Below, piece by piece: positions 18,782 through 31,201 of a stretch of DNA of 37,900 nucleotides (position 1 is the stretch's first letter; each line of letters opens with the position of its first letter). A program made the translations under genes and the position numbers. The notes under the pieces are model-generated. The model searched no databases. It was not told the DNA's origin and saw nothing but the letters and a program-made list of their open reading frames with translations. Source of the DNA: an uncultured Flavobacteriales bacterium (GTDB taxonomy: Bacteria; Bacteroidota; Bacteroidia; UBA10329); assembly GCA_937900875.1 (NCBI GenBank), contig CALCGD010000293.1:1-37900 (forward strand), in the 5' to 3' direction.

Positions 18782-19333
18782 ATGAAAACAATCAAAACAA
18801 TAGTACCAGCAATTTTAATCGGAATCTTATTCCTAATGCAATCGGGAAGCGCAAAGGCTCAAATGAGCGAGTACAAATTCAAACAACTGTTTGACCAGGC
18901 TTTTCAGCTAACAATTTCTGAAGAGTATAACCAAGCATTTCCAATCTGGAGACGACTGGTGAAAGTTGACAAAAAGCACGGTCAGGTTCTTTATTTCTAT
19001 TCTGTTTGTCGGTTTAAGGCCTTGGGTTCTTACACATCTACAGAAGCCATGCTACGCAGCGCAGCTAATAGAACCGATTACTACAACCAAATTGGAAGAG
19101 CTGAGGACAAAACAGCACCAGTTAAGGCTTGGTTTTATCTAGGCGAGGCATATGCAGAAAGCGCACAGTACAAAGGAGCTATTGAAGCGTATCGGAACTA
19201 CATGAGCTGCATTCCAATGGCATCTCTGGATCATAAGCGAGAGGTAATCGCAAAAATCAAGGAGATGAAGGAACAGCTTCGGTTGACTAAGGAGTATGGA
19301 AACACCTCTCTAATTGCAAGCCAGAAGCCATGA
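18782..19333 (+). CDS. Secreted TPR protein
   Basis: The 183-residue protein begins with a signal peptide (1-26, ending SAKAQ) and then TPR-like helices: EEYNQAFPIWRRLVKVD, QVLYFYSVCRFKALG, and APVKAWFYLGEAYAESAQY followed by AIEAYRNYM. The order matches the preceding protein segment by segment, so the two look like diverged paralogs. It is a free-standing copy of the TPR module otherwise fused to PD40 and OmpA domains. The stop overlaps the ATG of the LuxR-type gene by four bases (ATGA), so translation is coupled. Confidence 0.8.
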   Translation: MKTIKTIVPAILIGILFLMQSGSAKAQMSEYKFKQLFDQAFQLTISEEYNQAFPIWRRLVKVDKKHGQVLYFYSVCRFKALGSYTSTEAMLRSAANRTDYYNQIGRAEDKTAPVKAWFYLGEAYAESAQYKGAIEAYRNYMSCIPMASLDHKREVIAKIKEMKEQLRLTKEYGNTSLIASQKP

Positions 19334-19668
19334 ACGACCCGAGAGCTAAGAGACCAACCACTGCCGATTTGATTGATACTAGACATCAAGAATGGATAAA
19401 ATCGCTGAAAGTGGAGAGAAAAGGAACTGAACCGATAGTTATTAATCTTCCAGCAGATAAATGGGGGAAAACGGCCAAAGGATTATCAGAAAGAGAGTTG
19501 GAAGTATTACAACTGGTATCGTTCGGATGTAGTTCTGCAAAAGTGGCAGAGAAGCTGTTTATCAGTACTCACACCGTTACTAATCACAGGAAGAACATGC
19601 TGAGCCGATCGAGATGTGGAAATCTGGCAGAACTAGTAAGAGTTGCAATTGAGGAGAACCTGCTTTAA
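19330..19668 (+). CDS. LuxR-type HTH protein without receiver domain
   Basis: The 112-residue protein carries a C-terminal LuxR/GerE helix-turn-helix (about 50-108): GLSERELEVLQLVSFGCSS, then AKVAEKLFISTHTVTNHRKN with the recognition helix near 80-92. The N-terminal 50 residues are polar and match no receiver or autoinducer domain. Full-length regulators of this class are about 200 residues, so it is a DNA-binding module alone, presumably controlled by its level or by a partner protein. It is the third gene of the TPR-TPR-LuxR operon. Its last codons form one arm of a terminator hairpin. Confidence 0.87.
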   Translation: MNDPRAKRPTTADLIDTRHQEWIKSLKVERKGTEPIVINLPADKWGKTAKGLSERELEVLQLVSFGCSSAKVAEKLFISTHTVTNHRKNMLSRSRCGNLAELVRVAIEENLL

Positions 19669-19688
19669 GGAGCAGGTTCTTCTTTTTT
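19655..19688. terminator. Bidirectional terminator containing both stop codons
   Basis: AGAACCTGCT (19655-19664) and AGCAGGTTCT (19671-19680) form a perfect 10-base stem with a 6-base loop, followed by TCTTTTTT on the plus strand. Both stop codons of the convergent LuxR and exosortase genes lie at or in the loop, so the hairpin also encodes the last residues of both proteins. The T tract favours termination of the plus-strand operon. Confidence 0.75.
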
Positions 19689-20210
19689 GTACCTGTTTAC
19701 CCACATTACAAAAAGGAAGAAAATGAAGATGAAAGCAATAATATTAAAGACATCGTGATGATCGACAAAATCTCCTTTTTTGAGCAACAAAAACGAAAGA
19801 CAAAGACCTACTACACGGGCAATATTTATGAGTTGCATTCCAATCAAACCCATAGGAATAAACCACATTCTATCTTTCCATTTTCCAGGAAATGAAATAA
19901 TCAAAGCGGAAAGGGTAAACATCATGTCAATGCCCAAACAGAAGTTCCTAACGTGTATGTTAAATTCAAGATCATATAAATCGAGGTAACGCTGATTAAC
20001 TACCTCGGCTCCGTAGCCAAGGAGGTTCAAAATCCAAGCACTAGGTTCGACCAAAAACAAAAGCACGTAATGCACAAAGTGGCCATAAAGTGTGCTGATT
20101 ACTGGTAAACTCCAAACATTTGGACTAAACCACCAGAAGTAGAATCCACAGAGGGCACCAAGCTTTACTAAAAAGCCTATGACGTCCATATTTTTTCTAA
20201 TGAAATCCAT
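19665..20210 (-). CDS. Exosortase/archaeosortase family protein
   Basis: The 181-residue multi-pass membrane protein contains the catalytic triad of exosortases in order: C91 in VRNFCLGIDM, R132 in NIARVV, and H151/H152 in DHHDVFN, each at the expected end of a hydrophobic helix. The order and fold match the family, which cleaves PEP-CTERM-like sorting signals and attaches the cargo to the envelope. No PEP-CTERM cargo or exosortase-associated gene is recognisable in the window, so it appears orphan here. It lies 25 bases downstream of hemW on the minus strand, probably as the last gene of that operon. The exact subtype is not determined. Confidence 0.78.
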   Translation of the reverse strand: MDFIRKNMDVIGFLVKLGALCGFYFWWFSPNVWSLPVISTLYGHFVHYVLLFLVEPSAWILNLLGYGAEVVNQRYLDLYDLEFNIHVRNFCLGIDMMFTLSALIISFPGKWKDRMWFIPMGLIGMQLINIARVVGLCLSFLLLKKGDFVDHHDVFNIIAFIFIFFLFVMWVNRYKKEEPAP

Positions 20211-25656: not shown

Positions 25657-26901
25657 TTAGATAGCTGGTAGTATTTTGCTTCGTACTTCACCGAAACCAA
25701 TACGATTTCCGTCTTTTTCGCAGAACGCTTTCATAATTACTGAATCTCCGTCCTGCAGAAATTTTCTTTCTGTTCCATCAGGCATAGAAACTGGTTTGGT
25801 TCCTTTCCAAGAGATTTCAAGCATAGACCCATAACTATCTGGTGCCGGTCCAGAAAGAGTCCCAGATCCGCACATATCACCTACCTGCATGTTACATCCA
25901 TTAACGGTATGATGTGCTAATTGCTGAGCCATGCTCCAATACATGTACTTGAAATTGCTGTTCGATACAGTTTTTGAATCACCATTGGAAGTTTCAATAA
26001 TTGCCTCCAAATTGATGTCGAAGTTGTGGTCTTTCTTCATCTCTAAGTATGGAAGAACCTTTGGGTCTTGCGTAGGACTTGCGGTTCTGAAAGGCTCCAA
26101 CGCCTCCATGGTAATAATCCATGGAGAGATGGATGACGCAAAGTTTTTTCCTAGAAATGGTCCCAATGGAACATATTCCCATTTCTGAATATCTCTGGCA
26201 CTCCAATCATTGAAAACCACCATGCCGAAGATGTGGTCTTCGGCCTTTTCAACAGAAACTGAACTCCCTAGATCATTCGATTTTCCAACGATAAACGCCA
26301 TTTCCAACTCAAAATCTAACAGGCGACATGGTCCGAAAGAAGGCACGTCTGCATCATCTGCTTTGGTCTGACCTTTTGGTCGATGTACTGGTGTGCCACT
26401 TACAACAATAGAAGATGACCTGCCGTGATAACCCACTGGTAAATGCGACCAGTTTGGGAACAGTGCATTTGCTGGATCGCGAAATAGCGTTCCAACATTT
26501 GTGGCGTGCTCTTTACTGCTATAGAAATCCGTGTAGTCACCAACCCTTACAGGCAAATGCATTTGTACTTCATCCAATTTCCATAGCGCATCAATTACCA
26601 ACTGTTCGTTACCTTGAAGTTGGCTGTTTTCTGTACTAAATAATTCCTGAATTCGTGCTCTGGTGGCATTGGTAACTAGCTTTCCTAGTGAAATAAAATC
26701 GTTTAAAACGGATTGACTGAAAGCTTCTTCTGGAAGGCTTATTCCAGAGAATAATCCAGCCTTGTGCAACACATCAAGATCAACTATTGTGTTTCCAATT
26801 CTGGTTGCCGCACGCAGGCCGTTATTCTTACTGTAAATTCCGAAAGGAATGTTTTCTAAACTAAAATCACTGTTTGAGGGAATGTCAATCCAACTGCTCA
26901 T
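25657..26901 (-). CDS. fahA: Fumarylacetoacetase
   Basis: The 414-residue enzyme catalyses the last step of tyrosine and phenylalanine catabolism, hydrolysing fumarylacetoacetate to fumarate and acetoacetate. The metal site is intact: D125 in DYTDFYSS, E198 and E200 in LDFELEMAF, and D232 in FNDWSARDIQ. The catalytic His corresponds to H132 in SSKEHATNVG. GYHGRSSSIV (158-167) and the N-terminal domain are also typical. The rest of the homogentisate pathway is not in this window. The gene is monocistronic, with a candidate -7 element (TACTTTTG at 26934-26941, minus strand) upstream. Confidence 0.96.
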   Translation of the reverse strand: MSSWIDIPSNSDFSLENIPFGIYSKNNGLRAATRIGNTIVDLDVLHKAGLFSGISLPEEAFSQSVLNDFISLGKLVTNATRARIQELFSTENSQLQGNEQLVIDALWKLDEVQMHLPVRVGDYTDFYSSKEHATNVGTLFRDPANALFPNWSHLPVGYHGRSSSIVVSGTPVHRPKGQTKADDADVPSFGPCRLLDFELEMAFIVGKSNDLGSSVSVEKAEDHIFGMVVFNDWSARDIQKWEYVPLGPFLGKNFASSISPWIITMEALEPFRTASPTQDPKVLPYLEMKKDHNFDINLEAIIETSNGDSKTVSNSNFKYMYWSMAQQLAHHTVNGCNMQVGDMCGSGTLSGPAPDSYGSMLEISWKGTKPVSMPDGTERKFLQDGDSVIMKAFCEKDGNRIGFGEVRSKILPAI

Positions 26902-26933
26902 GTTCTATTGCTTTTACCTGTTTTTAAGAATGC

Positions 26934-26941
26934 CAAAAGTA
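26934..26941 (-). promoter_or_regulatory. Candidate -7 element for fahA
   Basis: On the minus strand TACTTTTG matches TAnnTTTG exactly and would give a leader of about 25 bases before the fahA ATG. No TTG is found at the -33 spacing, so support is partial. Confidence 0.3.
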
Positions 26942-26996
26942 ACCAGTTGAACCGTTTCGGGCATACACGGAAGTCAGCTAACTTCGAACCCACTAA

Positions 26997-28655
26997 ATGA
27001 GACGTCTCAGAAATATATTTCTTGTTCTGTTCTTGGTGCTTTTTTGTGCTTGGGGAATACTTCAAGTTGTGTATTATTCCTTAGCACTCGACCCTCCGAT
27101 AGTAAACGAAATCCCACCGTACAACAGCCATCAGTATGATGGTTATACTGTTTGTGAAGCCAATTGGTACGGTCAGAATGAAAGTGGACTTTGGGAAGCT
27201 TATATGCATGGAGAGGCTTACGAGCGAGGAGTCATTTTTGGACGATTGGCAGAAGCGCAAATAGTATCTCAAGAAGCCAGTTTTATTGGACAAATTCAGA
27301 AACTTATTCCGTCCGAATCGTTCCTGAAAACCCTTAAATACGGGGTTGTTTGGTTCAATAGAGACCTACCCGAGCACGTGTCGGTAGAGATGCAGCAAGA
27401 AATTTATGGCGTCTCAAAAGCCTTCTCAGATGATTATGACTTTATTGGAGATAAATACAGTCGAATACTTAATTATCATGCAGCCCATGATATAGGTCAT
27501 GCGCTACAAGATTTGAGTATTGTAGGGTGTACATCCTTTGCGGTATGGAATCAATATTCTGAGGATTCAAGTTTGGTAGTTGGTAGGAATTTCGATTTCT
27601 ACATGGGAGATGAGTTCGCCAAAGACAAGATTATCCTATTCATGAAACCAGACAGTGGTTATGCATTTGCAAGTGTTACTTGGGCTGGGTTTATGGGAGT
27701 TGTTTCAGGAATGAACGAGCACGGATTAACGGTGACGTTGAATGCCGCAAAGAGTTCTATACCAAATGGCGCTAAAACTCCCATTTCCATTCTTGCAAGA
27801 GAGATTCTGCAATATGCTAGAACCATTGATGAGGCTTATGCGATCGCCAAATCAAGACAAACATTTGTGTCTGAATCTATATTGATTGCATCTGCAGATG
27901 ATAAGGCTGCTGCCATCATTGAGAAATCGCCAGATAGGTTAGACATCTATCGACCAAATGATAGTCGTTTAACGTGCGCCAATCATTACCAAAGTGAAAC
28001 ATTCAAGAATGATGAGGTTAATCTGCAGAATATCCATGATTCAGATTCTGAATACAGATTTGAGCGACTGAACCAGCTATTGGAAAGCAATTTCCCTATC
28101 AATCCCAGAGAATCGGTTGAGATTCTCCGTAACCAAAAGGGAATAAATGATGCCGAGTTAGGATTAGGAAACCCAAAAGCAATCAATCAACTTTTAGCAC
28201 ACCATGGAATCGTTTTCCAACCAGAGAAGAGATTGTTGTGGATTAGCACTAATCCTTTTCAAATTGGAGAGTTTGTGTGCTATGACCTCAATGAGATTTT
28301 TTCTGATGATAATCCGCTCGCTGGTAGTTTAGCTATTGATTCTCTCAACATTCCTGCCGACCCGTTCCTGAATTCACCAGGATATCAGAAATTCATTCTA
28401 TACAAAGAGTTGAAGAACCGACTGTTTGATAACATCGCATTAGGGAAAGACATTGAATGGAATGCTGGTTTAGAAACGGAATTTATAGCGAGTAATCCCG
28501 AGAGTTACATTACTTATAATATGCTTGGCGATTATTACCTTGAACAAGGTAATTTGGAAAAAGCGAAGCATTTTTACGAACTATGTTTAAGTAAGGAAGT
28601 CGCATCAGAACAAGAACGGAGTAAGATTCAACACAATCTAGCGGAATGCCATTAA
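26997..28655 (+). CDS. C45-type Ntn hydrolase/acyltransferase
   Basis: The 552-residue protein has an N-terminal membrane anchor (about 7-29) and a C45-type Ntn-hydrolase domain related to acyl-CoA:6-aminopenicillanate acyltransferase and phospholipase-B-like proteins. The nucleophile is C178 in SIVGCTSFAVW. Typical motifs follow: NFDFY (about 199-203), AGFMGVVSGMNEHGLTVTLN, and the tail region with CANHYQSE. In this family Cys becomes the N-terminal nucleophile after autocleavage. Residues about 505-545 look like a TPR (YNMLGDYYLEQGNLEKAKHF). It overlaps the PaaK-like gene by 10 bases, and the two are probably functionally linked. Confidence 0.85.
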   Translation: MRRLRNIFLVLFLVLFCAWGILQVVYYSLALDPPIVNEIPPYNSHQYDGYTVCEANWYGQNESGLWEAYMHGEAYERGVIFGRLAEAQIVSQEASFIGQIQKLIPSESFLKTLKYGVVWFNRDLPEHVSVEMQQEIYGVSKAFSDDYDFIGDKYSRILNYHAAHDIGHALQDLSIVGCTSFAVWNQYSEDSSLVVGRNFDFYMGDEFAKDKIILFMKPDSGYAFASVTWAGFMGVVSGMNEHGLTVTLNAAKSSIPNGAKTPISILAREILQYARTIDEAYAIAKSRQTFVSESILIASADDKAAAIIEKSPDRLDIYRPNDSRLTCANHYQSETFKNDEVNLQNIHDSDSEYRFERLNQLLESNFPINPRESVEILRNQKGINDAELGLGNPKAINQLLAHHGIVFQPEKRLLWISTNPFQIGEFVCYDLNEIFSDDNPLAGSLAIDSLNIPADPFLNSPGYQKFILYKELKNRLFDNIALGKDIEWNAGLETEFIASNPESYITYNMLGDYYLEQGNLEKAKHFYELCLSKEVASEQERSKIQHNLAECH

Positions 28656-29926
28656 AACAGATTGAAACAAGCGCTTTGGCGCGAGATAATTATTGGCTTA
28701 AAGCCTTGAATGAGCACATCGCATATTTGCGTAAAAACAGCTGGTATTACAAAGACCAGTTGGTTTGGGCCGGACCAGAAGCCATTGGTTTAGAAGAACT
28801 GGCAGACATTCAGAATTTCCCGTTCACAGAGAAAGATGACATCGCTAGTAGAAATGAAGATTTCCTTTGTGTACCAATGGAGGATGTAAGAGATATTGTG
28901 ACTACTTCTGGTACTTTAGGAGGTTCCGTGGCCTGCTACCTCACCCAACAAGATTTGAATCGTTTGGGAGTGAATGAAGCGGGCTCTTACGTTCTTGCGG
29001 GTTGTTCCAAGGCAGATACATTTCAGCTTCTAACTACAATAGACAAACGTTTTATGGCAGGGCTGGCTTACTTTTTAGGTGCTAACGAATTGGGTGCTCG
29101 CATAATTCGTTCTGGGCCAGGTGCTCTTCAATTGCAATGGGAGAGTATTCAACGATTTGAGCCAACGGTTTTGGTGGCAGTGCCAAGTTTCATCCCACGT
29201 TTGATTAGGTACGCACTCGAGAATGGCATAGACCCGAACAAGACCAGCGTGAAAAAAATCATATGCATCGGTGAAGCTATTCGAGACGAAAATCTCAACC
29301 CAAATTTCTTGGCAAACCGCATTGCTGCCGAATGGAAGGTGCAGTTGTTCTCTACGTACGCTAGTACGGAAATGGCAACTGCCTTTACAGAATGTGAAGC
29401 TGGAAATGGTGCTCACATTCAGCCAGAATTGATGTTTGCGGAAGTGCTCAATGATGACGGAAACCAAGTGAAAAACGGAGAGAGTGGGGAAGTGGTAGTA
29501 ACTCCGCTTGGAGTGGAAGGTATGCCTGTGCTTCGTTTTAGAACGGGGGATATTTGTCACTACTATGATGAGCCTTGCCGGTGCGGAAGAAATACACCGC
29601 GCTTAGGACCTATAGTTGGTCGAAAGCAACAGATGGTTAAACTAAAAGGAACTTCGCTTTACCCAAACGCCATTATTGACGAATTGAATGCAATGCAAGA
29701 GGTGAGTAATTTCGTTATTGAGTTGCACTCTGACGAAAACGGTCTTGATGAAGTGATTGTTAAAGCCATGCTGAGAGGGGAGAATGCTGTTGCTTCAGTA
29801 TTAGAAAAGCTCAGCGGCAAACTGCGTGTAAAACCACGTTTGATTCTCACCGGAAACGATGAAATAAATCGACTCAAGTTCAATGAAAACGAACGTAAAC
29901 CAAAGATTCTAATTGACCATAGATAA
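28646..29926 (+). CDS. PaaK-like AMP-dependent acyl-activating enzyme
   Basis: The 426-residue protein belongs to the phenylacetate-CoA ligase family. The P-loop-like motif is VTTSGTLGGS (85-94), the adenylate-binding motif is STYASTE (236-242), and RTGD (299-302) and CRCGRN (311-316) complete the ATP and lid regions. The C-terminal domain carries VGRKQQMVKLKGTSLYP, the usual PaaK-type hinge and lysine region. Members activate aryl or acyl acids to acyl-AMP and then to CoA thioesters. The substrate is unknown. Its start overlaps the end of the C45 gene, which may use the acyl product. Confidence 0.87.
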   Translation: MPLKQIETSALARDNYWLKALNEHIAYLRKNSWYYKDQLVWAGPEAIGLEELADIQNFPFTEKDDIASRNEDFLCVPMEDVRDIVTTSGTLGGSVACYLTQQDLNRLGVNEAGSYVLAGCSKADTFQLLTTIDKRFMAGLAYFLGANELGARIIRSGPGALQLQWESIQRFEPTVLVAVPSFIPRLIRYALENGIDPNKTSVKKIICIGEAIRDENLNPNFLANRIAAEWKVQLFSTYASTEMATAFTECEAGNGAHIQPELMFAEVLNDDGNQVKNGESGEVVVTPLGVEGMPVLRFRTGDICHYYDEPCRCGRNTPRLGPIVGRKQQMVKLKGTSLYPNAIIDELNAMQEVSNFVIELHSDENGLDEVIVKAMLRGENAVASVLEKLSGKLRVKPRLILTGNDEINRLKFNENERKPKILIDHR

Positions 29927-29979
29927 TCTGAATTGGTCTAAATTGTACTTTCAAAGTTCCTTAACGAATAAACCTTCCT

Positions 29980-30570
29980 ATGAAATTCCTGAAATACCTT
30001 CTTATTACCATTGTTGTTTTAGTGCTTGCTTTTTTTAGTCTTGGTTTAATTTACCCAGTAGTGGACTATGGTTCTGAGATTGTGGTGAGTAAATCAATTG
30101 AAGAAGCATGGGCTGTTTCAGAAGACCAGTCAAAGTACCATCTGTGGTTAGAAGGTTTTCAAAGTATGGAACTAATAGAAGGCGAATTCGGTGAATTTGG
30201 AAGTAAGTATAAGGTTATAGTGAATCCAGGTGAAGGACAACCGGATTTTGAAATGATTGAGACTCTTATTTCGAGAGAAGATTACGATCATATTAACATG
30301 CATTTTGACAGTGACATGATGGATTTTGAACAACTAATCACCTTTTCGGAAACAGAAGAAGGAGTTTCTATCAAGACCGAGTCTAAAGTGATAGGGAAAG
30401 GAATGATGATGCAATCTATGTTTGCGATGATGGAAAAAATGGGTGGCGCGTTTACAATGCAGGAGACCAAAAACCAAAATGCACTTAAAAAAGTGATTGA
30501 AGAGAATACCACCGATTACTACCCAGTTGTGGCAGAAGAACCCATTTCAGAAGTTGAAGTTGCTGAATAG
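29980..30570 (+). CDS. Membrane-anchored SRPBCC-family protein
   Basis: The 196-residue protein starts with a single hydrophobic segment (about 5-27) followed by a START/SRPBCC (Bet v1-like) domain: VVSKSIEEAWAVSEDQSKY, LWLEGFQSMELIEGEFGEFG, then VTFSE-like strands and a long C-terminal helix region. Such domains bind hydrophobic ligands in a deep pocket; the ligand here is unknown. The last ~20 residues are acidic. It follows the PaaK-like gene by 53 bases on the same strand and may be part of the same unit, though a weak intergenic region separates them. Confidence 0.8.
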   Translation: MKFLKYLLITIVVLVLAFFSLGLIYPVVDYGSEIVVSKSIEEAWAVSEDQSKYHLWLEGFQSMELIEGEFGEFGSKYKVIVNPGEGQPDFEMIETLISREDYDHINMHFDSDMMDFEQLITFSETEEGVSIKTESKVIGKGMMMQSMFAMMEKMGGAFTMQETKNQNALKKVIEENTTDYYPVVAEEPISEVEVAE

Positions 30571-30625
30571 AGACAATTCAACGTTTGCTATTGTATAGCA
30601 AGTTTTCTTGTCATTCCATTTTATG

Positions 30626-31201
30626 CTAGCTCGTCTTCTTTACGTATTGGGTAAGAATTACGATTTGCTGGCCGCCAACACGCCCTTCAATTTGTTCTGC
30701 ATTATCCCAAACTAAGGAGATATTACGAACCGCTTCGCCTCTTTTAGCCACAATACTTGAACCTTTTACATTAAGGTCTTTTATTACCACAACGGAATCA
30801 CCCTGATTTAGAACCACACCGTTGCTGTCCTTGTGAATAATGGCCTCGTCATTTTCTACTGCCATTCCTGCTTTGGCCCAAGCGGCAGTGTCTTCTTCCA
30901 TGTACATCATGTCCAACAAATCTTGTGGCCATCCTTCAGCTTTAATCTTGTTTAGCATTCTAAAAGCAACAACCTGAACAGCGGGAACGGTGCTCCACAT
31001 GCTATCGTTTAAACAGCGCCAATGATTTGCTTCAATTTTAGAGTCATCATTCAATTGCTCGTTGCAAGTTTCGCAGGCGCTTATAGAGCCATCTAAGCTT
31101 CCTTCTTTCGGACTAACACCAAAAGGCATTATGCCATTGTCAGAAGTGCACAGCTCGCACTTAGAATCACTCCTTTTGTTCAAATCACTTTCTAAGCTCA
31201 T
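30626..31201 (-). CDS. PhnA (YjdM)-domain protein
   Basis: The 191-residue protein has an N-terminal zinc-ribbon-like region with two Cys pairs (CELC and CETC) and a C-terminal PhnA domain (about 125-191) reading LNQGDSVVVIKDLNVKGSS, then KRGEAVRNI and QQIVILTQYVKK. The ATG at 31201 gives the usual start; the frame extends upstream to a TTG that overlaps the preceding gene. PhnA/YjdM proteins are named from the phosphonate operon but their role is not settled, and no other phosphonate gene is present. It lies 31 bases downstream of the TfoX-N gene, probably in one operon. Confidence 0.87.
   Translation of the reverse strand: MSLESDLNKRSDSKCELCTSDNGIMPFGVSPKEGSLDGSISACETCNEQLNDDSKIEANHWRCLNDSMWSTVPAVQVVAFRMLNKIKAEGWPQDLLDMMYMEEDTAAWAKAGMAVENDEAIIHKDSNGVVLNQGDSVVVIKDLNVKGSSIVAKRGEAVRNISLVWDNAEQIEGRVGGQQIVILTQYVKKTS

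Follow-up and report, generated by a model that had tools for sequence, protein, structure and literature searches.

We analysed a window of 37,900 nucleotides from an uncultured Flavobacteriales bacterium (contig CALCGD010000293.1 of assembly GCA_937900875.1), in which two adjacent genes on the forward strand encode a C45-family Ntn hydrolase/acyltransferase (26997..28655, 552 amino acids, hereafter C45) and an aryl-coenzyme A (CoA) ligase (28646..29926, 426 amino acids). Both open reading frames (ORFs), and the 10 bases that they share (28646..28655), are as described in the original prediction, which likened the pair to the penicillin acylation module of fungi. C45 matches the Pfam AAT profile with 87.4 bits (cut-off 23.2) and the NCBIfam profile C45_proenzyme (NF040521) with 236.5 bits (cut-off 85). 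It is composed of an N-terminal transmembrane anchor (residues 7-25, 27015..27071; mean hydropathy 2.77, against 1.12 in the next highest downstream stretch), an Ntn-hydrolase catalytic region delimited by the span of structural matches (residues 53-453, 27153..28355) and a C-terminal helical segment resembling tetratricopeptide repeats (TPR; residues 490-551, 28464..28649), all encoded on the forward strand. The latter is suggested by the helices of the structure model and by profile hits on TPR chains; its TPR_8 score of 23.5 bits lies below the cut-off of 25.7. The codon of the predicted catalytic nucleophile, Cys178, directly follows that of Gly177 (27528..27530).

The ligase matches Pfam AMP-binding (46.9 bits) and, among solved structures, comes nearest to phenylacetate-CoA ligases (4r1l, E 2.4e-40), in agreement with its earlier description as phenylacetate-CoA-ligase-like. 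It also exceeds the curated equivalog cut-off of NF053551, "flexirubin biosynthesis putative acyl-CoA ligase FlxY" (551.4 bits versus 520), although it scores about 200 bits under the best FlxY members (747-751). The family includes an aryl-CoA ligase of demonstrated activity: according to the 2014 study, FlxY of Chitinophaga pinensis forms 4-coumaroyl-CoA with a kcat/KM of 52977 per M per s, 121-fold over cinnamate, and 4-coumaroyl-CoA is proposed as the starter of the flexirubin polyene chain (PMC3992019). Homology, including our alignment of the family (A4), identifies the window ligase as a FlxY relative that is predicted to convert 4-coumarate to 4-coumaroyl-CoA.

Other flexirubin genes are located elsewhere in the same genome (G000, an assembly of 355 contigs). 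One end of contig C152 carries a relative of the tyrosine ammonia-lyase FlxA (799.9 bits versus a cut-off of 700), and a DarA profile match is found on contig C279 (2676-3566) adjoining a DarB-like KAS III gene; we take this gene to be DarA from that adjacency. No other flx gene was present among the scanned proteins of the window. Since FlxA and DarA/KAS III are encoded elsewhere in the genome and the ligase passes the FlxY cut-off, we consider it likely that the pair belongs to the known flexirubin/aryl-polyene pathway and has been displaced from its main cluster. The product, for which an unknown amide or ester had been suggested, is very probably a flexirubin or aryl polyene. In the vicinity of FlxA on C152 we also found a protein with MMPL, acyltransferase and methyltransferase domains, two carotenoid-desaturase-like flavin adenine dinucleotide (FAD) oxidoreductases and a halogenase-like protein. 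The first of these is a single protein of 1290 amino acids (L045:14364-18236) beside FlxA, and its homologues of about 1160-1300 amino acids recur in relatives. The last is a Trp-halogenase-like FAD enzyme (L045:11575-12819), which suggests a halogenated pigment.

Within the genus (nine genomes, G000-G008), C45 was detected in 9/9 and the ligase in 8/9, the genome lacking the ligase (G003) being 76% complete. The two genes are adjacent in six of the eight genomes that have both, and the 10-base overlap recurs in five of these six (G000, G001, G002, G004 and G008), with a 113-base gap in G005. The pair is split in the remaining two, lying 5.9 kb apart on opposite strands in G006 and on different contigs in G007. 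The adjacency and the recurring overlap are more than chance. Co-occurrence was determined in 296 Bacteroidota genomes, each at least 90% complete, with C45 called at a profile E value of at most 1e-30 and FlxY-like ligases above 260 bits. Overall, we found C45 in 47, FlxY in 49, FlxA in 48 and DarA in 46 genomes. FlxY is present in 47/47 C45 genomes, which cover 25 genera, and occurs without C45 only in G111 and G158. These counts leave out five genomes with ligase matches of only 207-232 bits (G038, G104, G133, G276 and G293); with them the FlxY set comes to 54, and C45 is then found in 47/54. A further phylum-wide search for C45 returned 24/296 genomes, all of the same class, and added no discrimination. 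Conservation of the neighbourhood across Bacteroidota had been named beforehand as a check on the pair, and by this measure the genes are not independent and their linkage stands.

Gene order follows the same pattern. C45 lies directly upstream of FlxY in most of the 47 genomes (31 at a distance of up to 700 bases, 34 at up to 2.2 kb), and FlxY is otherwise farther along the same contig (n = 4) or on another contig (n = 9). We also inspected the best 80 homologous C45 loci from a scan of species genomes that covered at least 589 relatives, with Dyadobacter, Chitinophaga, Mucilaginibacter and Crocinitomix among the genera represented. FlxY falls within the extracted stretch in 61/80 loci and directly downstream of C45 in 60/80, an FAD oxidoreductase is directly upstream of C45 in 34/80, and one or both of these neighbours are present in 74/80. 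An MMPL gene is visible in 40/80. The export-module FAD oxidoreductase immediately precedes C45 in 13/80 loci whose extracted stretch contains no FlxY. Whole flexirubin/aryl-polyene blocks that include C45 were found in G100, G075, G202, G221 and L121. In the last of these, from Chitinophaga niastensis, the order is polysaccharide deacetylase, LolA, an unassigned ORF, dehydratase, a glycosyltransferase-like ORF, an MMPL-type ORF, FAD oxidoreductase, C45, phosphopantetheinyl transferase and FlxY. C45 is here two genes before FlxY, that is, at the W position of the flxA-flxY naming, in which U is an exporter, V a reductase, W a "ligase-like enzyme" and Y the ligase (PMC3992019). By this gene order we infer that C45 corresponds to FlxW of C. 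pinensis. Both genes are already listed in flexirubin/aryl-polyene clusters in a 2018 paper, so their grouping is not new; our literature search found no test of C45 function. The pair is thus real, well conserved and ordinary, a member of a known pigment cluster.

The C45 model was rebuilt, as a first version from 10 sequences was poor (predicted local distance difference test, pLDDT, 69.7) and one from 46 sequences reached a mean pLDDT of 92.0. The underlying alignment (A3) holds 38 sequences from the 80 loci, four of which were skipped when starts were chosen. With two methods (Foldseek and VIA-align) the best match is the Penicillium acyl-CoA:isopenicillin N acyltransferase (Foldseek E 4.2e-15; Z 37.0, root-mean-square deviation 2.8 over 338 aligned residues, 19% identity), which bears out the proposed kinship with this enzyme. 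The next folds are the lipid amidases acid ceramidase (Z 30.8) and NAAA (Z 29.4), and families outside the structural matches listed may resemble C45 as well. Cys178, Arg197, Asp200 and Asn329 are invariant in 46/46 sequences and Gly precedes the Cys in 44/46. By profile alignment, Cys178 and Asp200 correspond to fungal Cys103 and Asp121, and Arg197 stands opposite fungal Gln118. Self-cleavage between Gly177 and Cys178 is predicted. An N-terminal hydrophobic helix behind basic residues is present in 79/80 loci when permissive starts are allowed and in 68/77 proteins when only ATG starts are used. Lysine and arginine are more frequent before the anchor than after it in 59/79 loci, and the later hydropathy maximum is 1.35. 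Judged by hydropathy, the Ntn domain is probably on the periplasmic side. The predicted anchor and the N-in charge bias speak against C45 being a soluble protein of the cytoplasm that could reach acyl-CoA.

From these observations we propose the following course of events. On the basis of homology and the 2014 assays, FlxA would form 4-coumarate from tyrosine and FlxY would activate it to 4-coumaroyl-CoA. According to the published model, this thioester would start a type II polyketide synthase (PKS), and the polyene would be built on an acyl carrier protein. The neighbouring genes suggest that the polyene lipid may then be exported by the MMPL-acyltransferase-methyltransferase protein and a LolA-like carrier. 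C45 would be a separate enzyme of the pathway, with its N-terminal helix in the inner membrane and its Ntn domain in the periplasm. It probably cuts itself before Cys178 and would then form an acyl-enzyme on this residue. In a late periplasmic step, it may act on the polyene lipid after export by moving or releasing an acyl group; this assignment is our best guess from topology, family and neighbours. An observation that touches on this step comes from G158, where the gene that lies between FAD oxidoreductase and FlxY, in the place of C45, encodes an alpha/beta hydrolase that matches BD-FAE (L152:10506-11417). No FlxA or DarA match was found in this genome by profile searches. The replacement, seen in one genome, fits an acyl-ester type of step.

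The original prediction suggested that the ligase may feed C45, which would transfer the aryl group directly from CoA to an amine or alcohol, as in penicillin biosynthesis. The overlap of the genes and the identity of the nearest solved structure speak for such a hand-off, yet we find it very improbable and rejected it as the main explanation. The principal reason is the predicted periplasmic location of the C45 domain, as CoA thioesters are not expected in that compartment. Moreover, the invariant Arg197 departs from the fungal Gln118, the 13 loci in which C45 follows the FAD oxidoreductase have no FlxY in the extracted stretch, and 4-coumaroyl-CoA has already been proposed to start the polyene chain (PMC3992019). 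Within the likely explanation of the pair as part of the flexirubin pathway, C45 is therefore not the acceptor enzyme for the thioester made by FlxY. C45 could instead be an editing or detoxifying hydrolase that clears stalled or mislocated acyl intermediates from the periplasm, as its likeness to lipid amidases and the BD-FAE-type hydrolase at its position in G158 would allow. We regard this as improbable, although less so than the hand-off, since C45 is kept with FlxY in 47/49 genomes, more than would be expected of an accessory enzyme. C45 is missing from the visible parts of the polyene gene tables for E. coli and Azoarcus, which is neutral in this regard. Finally, the split pairs in G006 and G007 might suggest coincidental neighbours of unrelated function, but the chance of this is negligible given the co-occurrence over 25 genera together with the adjacency.

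A further role for C45 follows from its proposed identity with FlxW, itself inferred. Schoner et al. speculated in 2014 that the "ligase-like" FlxW joins the polyene acid and the dialkylresorcinol (DAR) in an ester (PMC3992019). The W position of C45 in C. niastensis agrees with this, but the distribution of the genes makes it doubtful. G075, G202 and G221 have C45 but no DarA, and all three keep the MMPL-FAD oxidoreductase-C45-FlxY block; DarA is present without C45 in G030 and G111; G030 has MMPL and FAD oxidoreductase genes but neither FlxY nor C45. Only these five genomes are discordant. On the other hand, the dar operon encodes a BtrH_N/DUF4872 protein whose matches above 370 bits (six genomes with 62-149 bits were left out: G046, G051, G174, G188, G278 and G281) coincide with DarA in 45/46 genomes, G000 being the exception, and occur in no genome without DarA. 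C45 is distributed with the polyene genes, whereas the BtrH-like protein tracks the DAR genes. A role in acyl transfer is attributed to the BtrH family. Examples from dar operons (L079:19219-20250, L146:8531-9544 and L154:5398-6396) are candidates for joining polyene and DAR. For arcuflavin of Azoarcus, which its authors predict to be a polyene-DAR ester, the gene table lists darE as a "BtrH-like peptidase" but lacks C45 (PMC3949708). Taken together, the discordance between C45 and DarA, the tracking of DarA by the BtrH-like protein and the arcuflavin table make the latter protein the better candidate for the DAR ester, and C45 is probably not the enzyme of this step. More specifically, but tentatively, a periplasmic C45 may move an aryl-polyenoyl or fatty acyl group on a lipid carrier, a step absent from the proteobacterial tables, while the BtrH-like protein would make the DAR ester.

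Several observations weigh against placing C45 and FlxY together in one flexirubin pathway with a late periplasmic step. The pair is separated from both FlxA (C152) and DarA (C279) in an assembly of 355 contigs, which leaves the distances undefined, and no BtrH-like match was found in these contigs. FlxY is absent from the extracted stretch in 19/80 loci. G111 carries FlxY, FlxA and DarA but no C45, MMPL or FAD-oxidoreductase gene, which means that not every DAR-polyene gene set requires C45. The 296 genomes are related rather than independent, so that Fisher p-values for co-occurrence are too small and overstate the association. The topology is drawn from hydropathy only.

As for the surroundings of the pair, a divergent gene upstream (25657..26901, reverse strand) encodes the fumarylacetoacetase of tyrosine degradation (TIGR01266, 609 bits), for which we do not claim a place in the pathway. 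It lies divergently beside C45 in G000, G002, G004, G005, G007 and G008. Both fumarylacetoacetase and FlxA draw on tyrosine, and shared control is possible. Downstream, the original prediction had pointed to a membrane-anchored SRPBCC protein. The gene is indeed present (29980..30570, forward strand) and its product is SRPBCC-like at a sub-threshold score (19.4 versus 27.4 bits), but it is a bystander and not a conserved neighbour. No close orthologue was found in 20 relatives, where the best full-length match has 27% identity and lies elsewhere in its genome, nor was the gene seen as a neighbour in the 80 C45 loci; on these grounds it was rejected as a pathway member. A promoter scan of positions 26800-30700 gave 9 matches, compared to a shuffled mean of 9.3. 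A terminator scan of the same interval gave 5 versus 2.6, all five within the two coding regions, and was not used. At 19330-20210 of the window, a small ORF for a helix-turn-helix/LuxR-like regulator adjoins a membrane protein that, judged by eye, may resemble an exosortase; both recur next to the pair's locus in other members of the genus.

Flexirubins, orange pigments of the outer membrane, are used as a chemotaxonomic marker of Bacteroidota, and in the literature found, the late steps in which the polyene joins lipid or DAR have no tested enzyme. The useful addition made here is the separation of C45, on the polyene side, from the BtrH-like protein, on the DAR side, which opens a late step of the pathway to testing. 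If the BtrH-like acyltransferase of the dar operon does make the DAR ester, the published proposal for FlxW would be overturned.

Compared with known systems, the E. coli aryl-polyene (APE) cluster shares a LolA-like chaperone, an RND-family exporter, glycosyl-/acyltransferases and type II PKS-like genes, but differs in that the visible part of its gene table contains no C45 gene (PMC8253772 Table 1). The Penicillium chrysogenum acyl-CoA:isopenicillin N acyltransferase (2x1c, 2x1d) has the fold of C45 and the aligned Cys and Asp, whereas C45 has in addition a membrane anchor and C-terminal TPR-like helices, carries Arg197 in place of Gln118 and would face no CoA pool. Acid ceramidase and NAAA, lysosomal lipid amidases that act outside the cytosol, again have the same fold, and in the profile alignment NAAA has the Cys and the GRN-D motif in common with C45; their sequences are distant, with 14-16% identity for the precursor chains. 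Closest are the flexirubin clusters of C. pinensis (flxA-flxY) and Flavobacterium johnsoniae, which contain the same FlxY, FlxA and C45-type gene, in contrast to the window, where the pair stands beside a fumarylacetoacetase gene with FlxA and DarA on contigs C152 and C279.

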